Shown: positions 5,681 to 24,972 of the stretch, piece by piece | Position numbering within the stretch: the stretch's first letter is position 1 | How the letters are laid out: every line of letters begins with the position of its first letter | NCBI RefSeq assembly: GCF_005239125.1 | Contig: NZ_SZYE01000019.1 | Span: 1-34,529 of the forward strand | From: Cellulomonas hominis | GTDB lineage: Bacteria; Actinomycetota; Actinomycetes; Actinomycetales; Cellulomonadaceae | Reading direction: 5' to 3' | DNA: 34,529 nucleotides | Program-made: the position numbers and the translations under genes | The notes under the pieces: generated by a model | What the model saw: the letters and a program-made list of their open reading frames with translations, nothing else | What the model was told of the DNA's origin: nothing | Databases searched by the model: none

Positions 5681-5755
5681 CGCCGAGAGGGCAACCGACA
5701 CGTCGAGCGAGCACCCGCTGGATGCTCGCTCGACGTGTCGGGTACCCCCTCGCGG
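5681..5755. repeat. Long palindromic hairpin repeat (element C)
   Basis: A perfect 19-bp stem (5695-5713 with 5723-5741, core CGACACGTCGAGCGAGCA) closes a 9-nt loop. Outside it, an imperfect stem continues from CGAGAGGG to CCCCCTCG. The whole unit starts CGCCGAGAG and ends CTCGCGG, the same ends as the repeat at 23736-23800. It lies between ohr and the LuxR regulator and could stop ohr transcription, but it has no T-run on either strand and is much longer than the other terminators here. The remaining 242-nt gap (5560-5801) shows nothing else recognisable. Confidence 0.75.
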
Positions 5756-23735: not shown

Positions 23736-23800
23736 CGCCGAGAGTGCACTACCTGCCGGGTTTGGACGGCTGGAACCCCGCATGTTGTGCACTCTCGCGG
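23736..23800 (+). repeat. 65-nt palindromic hairpin repeat, copy A
   Basis: Outer arms CGAGAGTGCAC (23739-23749) and GTGCACTCTCG (23787-23797) are perfect 11-bp partners. Nested inside, GGGTT (23758-23762) pairs with AACCC (23774-23778), and ACCTGC with GCATGT imperfectly. The same 65-nt length and 41 identical positions are found in copy B downstream of the DUF559 gene, in the same direction. The rest of this 259-nt gap (23684-23942) holds a short tandem repeat and G-tracts. Confidence 0.85.
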
Positions 23801-23828
23801 GTCAGGAGTCAGGAGTCAGGGGTCAGGG
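23801..23828 (+). repeat. Heptamer tandem repeat (GTCAGGR)4
   Basis: GTCAGGA GTCAGGA then GTCAGGG GTCAGGG, four head-to-tail heptamers starting immediately after hairpin copy A. Copy number is likely to vary between strains. Confidence 0.9.
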
Positions 23829-23850
23829 GTGGGGGTCGCGGGGGCCGGGG
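23819..23850 (+). other. G-quadruplex-type motif after repeat A
   Basis: Five tracts of four or five G within 32 nt (23819-23822, 23826-23829, 23831-23835, 23840-23844, 23847-23850), with loops of 1-4 nt. This meets the usual G4 sequence rule. It lies 93 nt before the DUF559 gene start. Confidence 0.6.
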
Positions 23851-23942
23851 TCCGGCGTCCACAGGGCGTCGGGGCGTGCGTGGTCCACAGGTTCGGGCGG
23901 CCGGGCGCCCGCGGGGTGGGCGCGGCTCGGCACGCTCGGGGG

Positions 23943-24854
23943 ATGCCCGCCCACCGCGCACCGCTCCCGCCTCCGCTCACCTCGCGGCCGTTCACCGTCG
24001 CCGAGGGGCGTGATGCGGGCCTCAGCCCGGCGCAGCTGCGCCGCGCGTCCCTGCGCGCGCCGACGCGCGGCGTCCGGAGCGCCGCGGTGGCTCCCGCGCC
24101 GGACGACGTCGTCCGGCGGTGCCACGACGTGGTGCCGGTCCTGCCGCTCGGGACCGTGTTCTGCCACGTGACGGCGCTGGCCCTGCTCGACGTCCCGCTG
24201 CCCGTGGGCCTCGATGCCCGCGGGCCGCTGCACGTGCAGGTCGGGCCGGGGTGCACGCCCCCGCGGCGGGCCGGCGTGCGGAGCCACGTCCGGCCGGCGC
24301 GGGACGTCGGGAGCCGCGTCGTCAGCGGGCTGCCCGTCCTGGCACCCGAGGCGGTGCTCGTCCAGCTCGCGGCGACGGTCCCCGCCCGCGAGCTGGTGGT
24401 GCTCGGCGACGCGCTGGTCCGCCGGCGCCGCCCCCTGTGCACGCCCGCGGGCCTCGCCGCGGCGGTCGAGGCGCTGCCGCCCGGCACCCGCGGCGTCCGG
24501 CGCCTGCGCGAGGCGGTGCAGCACGTCCGGCCAGGGACGGACTCCCCGATGGAGTCCCGGCTCCGCTGGATCCTCGTCCAGGCGGGTCTGCCCTGCCCGG
24601 AGGTCAACACCCTGGTGCGGTCCGAGGACGGCTGGGTGGTCGCGATGCCCGACCTCGCGTACGTCCGCGAGCGGGTCGCGATCGAGTACGACGGCGACGT
24701 GCACCGCACCGACCGGGACACCTGGCGGCGGGACATCGCCCGGCGCCAGGCGCTCGAGGCGCTCGGCTGGCGGGTCATCACCTGCACGGCGGACGACGTG
24801 CTGCGGCACCCGGACCGCCTGGTCGCCTGGGTGCGCCGGGCCCTGCGGCGCTGA
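23943..24854 (+). CDS. AbiEi-like / DUF559 (Vsr-fold) endonuclease-domain protein
   Basis: A 303-aa protein. The N-terminal ~60 residues (GLSPAQLRRASLRAPTRGVRS) resemble the winged-helix start of type IV antitoxin AbiEi-like proteins. The C-terminal ~100 residues are a DUF559 domain of the PD-(D/E)xK/Vsr fold: E204 in SPMESRLR, D237 in MPDLAY, E248 and D250 in VAIEYDG, H254, then QALEALGWRVI. The nuclease residues look intact. No toxin, methyltransferase or other restriction gene is adjacent. The gene is bracketed by two related 65-nt hairpin repeats in direct orientation. It may cut DNA at mismatches or hairpins, but that is inference. The ATG gives the shortest form keeping the winged helix. 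Confidence 0.85.
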   Translation: MPAHRAPLPPPLTSRPFTVAEGRDAGLSPAQLRRASLRAPTRGVRSAAVAPAPDDVVRRCHDVVPVLPLGTVFCHVTALALLDVPLPVGLDARGPLHVQVGPGCTPPRRAGVRSHVRPARDVGSRVVSGLPVLAPEAVLVQLAATVPARELVVLGDALVRRRRPLCTPAGLAAAVEALPPGTRGVRRLREAVQHVRPGTDSPMESRLRWILVQAGLPCPEVNTLVRSEDGWVVAMPDLAYVRERVAIEYDGDVHRTDRDTWRRDIARRQALEALGWRVITCTADDVLRHPDRLVAWVRRALRR

Positions 24855-24907
24855 CCCACCTGCCGCACCCGCCACCCGCCCGGCGCGGCGCGGCGTGCGA
24901 TCGACCC

Positions 24908-24972
24908 CGCCGAGTCCGCAGAAGGTGCGCGGTTCGAGGGTGGTGAACCCCACCTCTTGTGCGATCTCGGCG
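24908..24972 (+). repeat. 65-nt palindromic hairpin repeat, copy B
   Basis: Ends CGCCGAG (24908-24914) and CTCGGCG (24966-24972) pair perfectly. Inner partners are CGCA/TGCG, AAG/CTT, AGGTG/CACCT and GGTTC/GAACC. It aligns without gaps to copy A over 65 nt (41 identities). Several differences alter both sides of a stem, so pairing is kept although sequence has changed. Confidence 0.82.

Follow-up and report, generated by a model that had tools for sequence, protein, structure and literature searches.

A solo nuclease gene of Cellulomonas hominis lies between two related palindromes, and most of the genes of its kind that were examined, which encode proteins with an AbiEi-like region and a Vsr-type nuclease domain, are bracketed in the same way by two palindrome copies, typically about 57–66 nt in length. 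Palindrome sequences are particular to each gene lineage, and in the cases where copies were counted, solo copies of the genome's own type, up to tens of them, are dispersed in the genome. On balance we think it probable that in the palindrome–gene–palindrome unit we see a small REPtron-like selfish element in its autonomous form, which would be driven by the Vsr-type nuclease through recognition of its own palindromes.

The window, i.e. the whole stretch of DNA that was analysed, is 34,529 nucleotides in length (contig NZ_SZYE01000019.1, positions 1 to 34,529 of the forward strand). The features of the cassette are as follows; bit scores are those to model R1, which was built from 23 sites, A and B among them.

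23736..23800, + strand: left palindrome A, 65 nt, of type 1 (58.5 bits)
23943..24854, + strand: solo nuclease gene (ATG to TGA; 303 aa) that encodes Pfam domains
24908..24972, + strand: right palindrome B, 65 nt, of type 1 (62.7 bits)
23736..24972, + strand: whole cassette A–gene–B, between nth and a hydrolase gene

A and B are both 65 nt in length, have the same orientation and share 41 of 65 positions without gaps. Among the window 65-mers (34,465 starts on the + strand, overlaps with A and B left out), B alone reaches 41 identities to A. Self-complementary positions number 23 of 32 in A and 21 of 32 in B, and 12 window 65-mers, A and B included, are palindromic at the level of B or above. 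Folding of the + strand as single-stranded DNA gives z values of −5.3 for A and −4.45 for B, with none of 200 shuffles folding equally well. A pattern derived from A and B matches only these two in the window (shuffles expect 0), the Rfam scan of the window at the gathering threshold returned tRNA alone, and a plasmid search with A gave two weak partial matches of 84–86%. The first-pass annotation had described two related 65-nt palindromes around a solo nuclease, and the 41/65 identity, the coordinates and the folding agree with that description.

The gene is flanked by the endonuclease III-type gene nth on one side and by an alpha/beta hydrolase gene on the other; beyond these are an antiporter gene on one side and a gene for a Crp-type regulator on the other, the latter at a distance of two genes. 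The same annotation had noted no adjacent toxin, methyltransferase or transposase, and none was found among the tested neighbours, nor was a modification gene or partner. The AbiEii nucleotidyltransferase toxin does not adjoin the gene, whose neighbours are nth and the hydrolase gene.

The window protein has a C-terminal Vsr-type DUF559/MTES_1575 domain, and its N-terminal/central region appears to be AbiEi-like. Its matches to Pfam MTES_1575 (E 1.1e-9) and DUF559 (E 2.5e-6) are both over cut-off, and MTES_1575 is described as a Vsr-family REase domain (PMC3710099). Among 60 relatives, 58 match MTES_1575 and 54 match DUF559 (E 0.1 or better); residues E248, H254 and W261 are invariant, and D237 and D264 nearly so. 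The protein is thus a Vsr/DUF559 nuclease by a domain over cut-off and by conserved acidic and histidine residues. PADLOC AbiEi models match it at residues 108–158 alone (E 0.0016). They match the protein of locus L276 in the later part of the model (E 4e-9), and that of L235 at residues 11–153 over most of one model's length (E 4.5e-6). The Pfam domain AbiEi_1, the antitoxin C-terminal domain, is found in one of the 60 members. No close solved relative was found by sequence; the family profile comes nearest, weakly in both cases, to 3hrl, an endonuclease-like protein (E 0.072), and to 3r3p, a mobile intron protein (E 1.7) that we take to be I-Bth0305I.

The association of the gene with palindromes was assessed in a named sample of 80 loci, of which L229 was too short and was dropped, leaving 79. 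Matching palindromes are present on both sides of 55 of the 79 relatives as against two of the 548 genes that served as controls in those loci, under a second rule (the right flank extends over the gene's last 50 nt and the left one over its first 30 nt, with a threshold of 16) that was fixed after the result of the first scoring version, 47/79 relatives versus 2/549 other genes in the same loci, was known. Both controls above threshold (L258 8086 and L260 9032) adjoin a target gene. Bracketing was scored in 36 of 39 closer relatives and in 19 of 40 farther ones; 21 of the 24 genes not scored as bracketed are in the more distant half. The right palindrome starts a median of 1 nt past the stop codon, with 25 of 55 beginning before the stop codon ends, and the left palindrome ends a median of 83 nt ahead of the matched coding stretch, which in most loci starts at or near the start codon. 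It had been proposed from the window that the DUF559 protein may recognise and spread, or protect against, such hairpins; these counts support a tie between genes of this subfamily and matching palindromes. Orthologues that routinely lack the repeats had been named as the contrary outcome; this is not what closer relatives show, and the picture is mixed in farther ones.

An earlier survey, in which palindromes were sought without a covariance model and judged by eye, overlaps with the named sample (G009 L225, G015 L224/L227, G017 L234, G035 L228, G001 L229). It takes in a clade that comprises the genome of C. hominis itself (G000) together with G015, G009, G028, G001, G017 and G035. The paralogue C221 of G000 and its G009 counterpart have another palindrome, of 66 nt (type 2), on both sides; the G028 and G015 C32 genes are bracketed by a third palindrome (type 3), and the G035 gene by a type-1-like palindrome. 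Outgroup genes in G039, G057, G040, G042, G051 and G055 are bracketed by still other palindromes. A matching pair was absent by eye at G052, at G041 and at a distant G028 paralogue; the G017 gene and G015 C19 have a palindrome on one side at most, and the G001 gene, at a contig edge, has a single side visible. G015 C19 is the third close DUF559 gene of its genome, and its weak palindrome on one side may mark a decaying cassette.

L190 7884-8765: third close DUF559 gene of G015 (C19)

Palindrome type follows gene type. Over the 47 loci bracketed in the first version, the similarity of palindromes rises with protein identity (Mantel r 0.669, reached in 0/5000 permutations), high palindrome similarity is found only above about 60–75% protein identity, and in 36 of 47 loci no palindrome matches the left one better than the right one of the same locus. 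One locus, between genes for MarR and UDP-glucose dehydrogenase (UGDH), holds eight cassettes (G000, G009, ACRRI, G028, G015, G035, G017 and G001, the G001 contig covering the MarR side alone). Neighbouring genes there are 86–97% identical across genomes. The nucleases are 92% identical between G000 and G009 (type 2), 76–82% among ACRRI, G028 and G015 (type 3), and 46–64% in every other pair, G035 versus G001 (63%) included. ACRRI has neighbours with 97% identity to their G000 and G009 counterparts. Its nuclease, by contrast, shows 64% identity with the nucleases of those two genomes and 82/78% with those of G028/G015, and both its palindromes are of the G028 type. The gene and its palindromes therefore change as one. 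In an alignment of five cassettes, the outer ends CGCCGA..TCGGCG are common to both types, and it is the inner arms that differ.

In genome-wide counts, type-2 palindromes of at least 59 bits were found only in G000 (9) and G009 (7) among 12 genomes searched, bracketing pairs counted, and both genomes have the type-2 gene. Type-3 strand matches number 82 in G028 and 50 in G015, which both have the type-3 gene, and 41 in G000, 37 in G017, 24 in G009 and 15 in G035, which do not; none were found in G001 or in five non-clade genomes, and the type-2 and type-3 models (R2 and R3) cross-match. G009 has 72 type-1 strand matches, yet no type-1 gene was found in it, its single close gene being of type 2. 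The simplest reading of types that lack their gene is that they are orphan repeats left after gene loss, and they weaken a strict one-to-one rule between type and gene. At the genus level, the hairpins and the close gene subfamily coincide, each being present in 7 of 36 genomes, and under stricter filters model R1 has no match in 29/29 genus genomes outside the clade. This match was dropped as proof: nth identity is 88–94% within the seven genomes and 74% or less to others, so they are one clade and the match counts once.

In G000 the A/B pattern has 72 strand matches (reversed control 0), and the covariance model built from 23 sites has at least 106 (150 candidates scored). The type-1 family comprises at least 54 sites, and 52 of the 54 lie between genes, in loci with 90% coding sequence. 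Convergent gaps hold 21 of the 46 sites that have a called gene on each side, compared with 18 of 134 background gaps (p 1.7e-5), and divergent gaps hold 6/46 versus 48/134 (p 0.003). Among the genes that adjoin G000 sites, none belongs to a family that is met three times. All sites save A and B (52/54) are away from DUF559 genes. Five genes were recovered with the window protein (C110, C221, C352, C111 and C355), and the contigs that bear them have no site save A and B. The expectation that hairpins would be linked to DUF559 genes thus gains no support, in that form, from the own genome: the hairpins do not mark such genes, and the link runs from gene to hairpins.

Dispersal was also observed outside the clade. 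A Cryobacterium pattern, drawn from the brackets of four of the six genomes that later scored copies, was counted in ten gene-bearing Cryobacterium genomes at 82, 70, 20, 6, 2, 2, 0, 0, 0 and 0 copies; five other genera have 0, as does the reversed-pattern control in all 15 genomes. In the six Cryobacterium genomes with copies, and in no other of the ten, the searched type brackets the gene. As for the four without copies, L289 has a different pair of its own, and L274, L279 and L282 have no matching pair. Samples of two outgroup genomes give a similar result, with four solo copies of its own type in G039 (about 0.23 Mb) and three in G040 (about 0.25 Mb), all of one of its three types; the other two G040 types have no solo copy in that sample, and neither sample contains the other genome's types. 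Nine of 55 bracketed named loci have further copies of the locus's own palindrome elsewhere in the fetched stretch (20 altogether), and of the extra copies outside the own locus, 40 are in same-genus loci and two in other genera. In one Cryobacterium genome the palindromes cluster near the gene, with six listed sites in about 13 kb, which suggests local spread.

L263 and genome G062 C4:251-265 kb: clustered Cryobacterium sites

The cassette itself is polymorphic. At the nth–hydrolase interval, the A-to-B unit is present in two of the seven clade genomes (G000 and G015) and absent in the other five (G009, G028, G001, G017 and G035), where the matched gene ends are 8–88 nt apart with no gene between; the G028 interval has a lone palindrome of another kind. 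The suggestion that A to B may be a mobile cassette is in this respect, presence versus absence, borne out. Solo sites are polymorphic as well. G009 has a type-1 palindrome at four of five intervals comparable with G000 type-1 sites. When type-1 sites of G000 and G009 were compared with G028, G015 and G001 by a simple end-motif scan, by which decayed copies could be missed, none of 13 comparisons showed type 1; 11 were empty and two had type 3, the two cases being one G028 palindrome and some sites being counted from both genomes. At two orthologous intergenic sites, the solo type varies by genome (2 versus 3, and 1 versus 3), as might be produced by a hot spot or by conversion.

L335 6830; L336 8830; L337 7915; L077 5643-5808; L350 10058: type-varying solo sites

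A G009 pair 1.2 kb apart (C50:168353/169598), which at first resembled a second cassette, brackets an unrelated gene. A gapped-insertion search among fetched loci gave 11 in-alignment and 112 paired cases, and those inspected (all 11, and 40 of the 112) are ordinary GC-rich terminator-like hairpins. Neither a clean empty target nor a target duplication was seen at the empty sites among fetched loci, where the flanks are too diverged. The RAYT-type domain Y1_Tnp (PF01797) is found in 3 of 58 genomes overall and in none of the seven clade genomes; with no match in the clade, a RAYT was rejected as mobiliser.

The palindromes consist of two arms around a variable centre of about 9–13 nt. In type 1, arm segment 14–18 has a symmetry of 0.645 versus 0.435 when shuffled (44 sites with no palindrome filter; 0/2000 shuffles), and of 0.705 versus 0.451 in the palindrome-filtered set (42 sites). 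Free shuffling of the arms is thereby rejected for this segment, and columns 8–10 and 29–32 show no clear symmetry excess. In the Cryobacterium type, symmetry at the centre is lower than after shuffling, 0.279 versus 0.360, with 1984 of 2000 shuffles equal or higher (48 of 82 copies, namely the listed ones that have no more than one mismatch). AbiEi is reported to bind a pair of 23-bp inverted repeats separated by 3 bp, and for a relative the spacing of the bound pairs is 13 bp (PMC7319586); by analogy, the arms and variable centre resemble operators of the AbiEi family. Arm symmetry together with low pairing at the centre is compatible with a dyad to which two monomers bind, or with an open-loop hairpin. 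Given the AbiEi-like region, a double-stranded dyad is as likely a substrate as a hairpin.

Other palindrome families were seen in passing. One is 75 nt in length with a 35-nt core and similar outer ends, and one of its sites is common to G000 and G028. Nested palindromes of 74 nt, with a CGCCGAG-like motif repeated within the arm, form a further family in the clade.

Window 5701-5735; L340 7378-7412; L339 11621-11695; L335 1946-2020; L352 2943-3017: 75-nt family
L332 4263-4336; L354 12704-12777; L364 12066-12139; L333 2579-2652: 74-nt nested palindromes

From the association of gene and palindromes, we infer recognition, cutting and spreading by a route such as the following. The AbiEi-like region may bind one palindrome arm per monomer, in analogy to AbiEi antitoxins on paired inverted repeats, and two monomers would set two Vsr-type nuclease domains on one palindrome. 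These might then cut or nick DNA at the palindrome or a related target, and repair would copy the palindrome, or the entire palindrome–gene–palindrome unit, to new sites. We know of no strand-joining activity in PD-(D/E)XK nucleases, and spreading would therefore need host repair. The upstream palindrome probably doubles as the operator of the gene itself. Solo palindromes would be non-autonomous offspring, able to persist after gene loss.

The layout is that of the REP/REPIN–RAYT (TnpA-REP) REPtron and the TIRtron, in which a dedicated nuclease gene is flanked by palindromes and there are dispersed non-autonomous copies. Enzyme and palindrome are described as co-evolving in the REPtron (PMC3733652; PMC8266576), and the window-type enzyme and its palindrome likewise co-vary. 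A further likeness is the dispersed intergenic cognate copies, the intergenic position being that checked in G000 alone (52/54). In place of the HUH tyrosine transposase of the REPtron, there is a Vsr-type nuclease that also has an AbiEi-like region, and whereas REPs are given as 20–40 bp (PMC3733652), the palindromes here are longer and a GTAG tag was not seen in them. Since RAYT/Y1_Tnp is absent from the clade and the enzyme belongs to another family, the system is not classed as a REPtron: the enzyme class is unrelated to that of the REPtron, and the layout works like a known kind.

Other known systems share part of this design. The weak match to 3r3p suggests a catalytic domain related to that of Vsr-fold (EDxHD) homing endonucleases, e.g. 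I-Bth0305I, and presence/absence and allelic replacement fit homing; unlike these enzymes, the window nuclease is free-standing, with no intron or intein seen, and its brackets are palindromes that are also dispersed. The type IV antitoxin AbiEi is similar to the N-terminal/central region and has paired inverted repeats of similar span, but the window gene has no toxin gene beside it, its AbiEi-like region is fused to a nuclease, and its palindromes are genome-wide. Solitary Vsr-like proteins such as Caulobacter VsrA also have a DUF559 domain; VsrA is described as functionally linked to a cytosine methyltransferase, and, unlike in the window system, palindromes are not mentioned for it in the relevant passages (PMC12907096). 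Compared with an insertion sequence or MITE, the one gene of the cassette is by Pfam no transposase, and the flanks are too diverged for a duplication to be called. In searches of open-access literature (titles, abstracts and some passages), no link was found between DUF559/Vsr-type nucleases and dispersed palindromes.

An alternative is that the palindromes are passive, i.e. operators for AbiEi-type self-regulation that also act as two-way terminators, with copies spread by an unseen enzyme or by chance duplication and not by the nuclease. The AbiEi-like region, the arm and spacer geometry and the preference of solo sites for convergent gene pairs all agree with this, but it leaves unexplained the second copy at the stop codon, the tens of solo copies at a distance from the gene, and the joint exchange of the gene with both palindromes; moreover, neither a gene family recurring three times beside G000 sites nor a RAYT-type gene in the clade was found. 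We consider it unlikely. That ordinary terminators merely chance to flank the gene has a negligible probability: GC-rich terminator-like hairpins do occur in these genomes, but coincidence is contradicted by the bracketing of 55/79 relatives versus 2/548 controls, and by the 29/29 non-clade genus genomes without an R1 match under the stricter filters.

Two further readings give the nuclease another task. The Vsr-type protein might bind or cut hairpin RNA, as Vsr/RAP-fold RNA-binding proteins do, and so tune the 3′ ends of genes. A Vsr-like mitochondrial RNA regulator has been described (PMC11879112) and would serve as a precedent, weak RAP matches occur in three of the 60 members, and the sites in convergent gaps and the arm symmetry of type-1 segment 14–18 would be expected; set against this are the 6/46 G000 sites between divergent genes, the centre of the Cryobacterium type, which self-pairs less than shuffled, and a unit exchange and dispersal typical of mobile DNA. 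We consider an RNA role very improbable. A policing function, in which the nuclease attacks DNA with no palindromes or with foreign ones and the copies are self marks or decoys (defence or addiction), is likewise very improbable. It would account for a nuclease far less conserved than its same-locus neighbours (46–64% between types versus 86–97%) and for the differing solo types at two loci, and the AbiEi models do stem from a defence library. However, palindromes are retained in genomes that lack the gene of that type, their distribution is patchy and their densities low, and the tested neighbours of the window gene include no modification gene or partner.

The selfish-element reading can be taken further, to a new class of element in which an AbiEi-type DNA-binding domain, joined to a Vsr-type homing nuclease, would recognise a dyad palindrome and disseminate it across the genome by break repair, with concerted conversion. 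As its specificity drifted, the nuclease would cause resident palindromes and rival cassettes to be replaced by its own type. This is put forward as a tentative possibility, one that may well prove wrong. If true, it would explain the genome-to-genome differences in type both at the two solo sites and at the home locus.

Palindromic repeats are common in bacteria. In the work cited here, the enzymes tied to them are tyrosine (HUH) transposases, the RAYTs and their kin (PMC3733652; PMC8266576). If an enzyme unrelated to these also co-varies with its own palindromes, such systems would have arisen more than once. Matched pairs of nuclease and palindrome, with shifting specificity, are available for bench study, and if the system holds, a role is suggested for a set of actinobacterial DUF559 genes with no assigned function.
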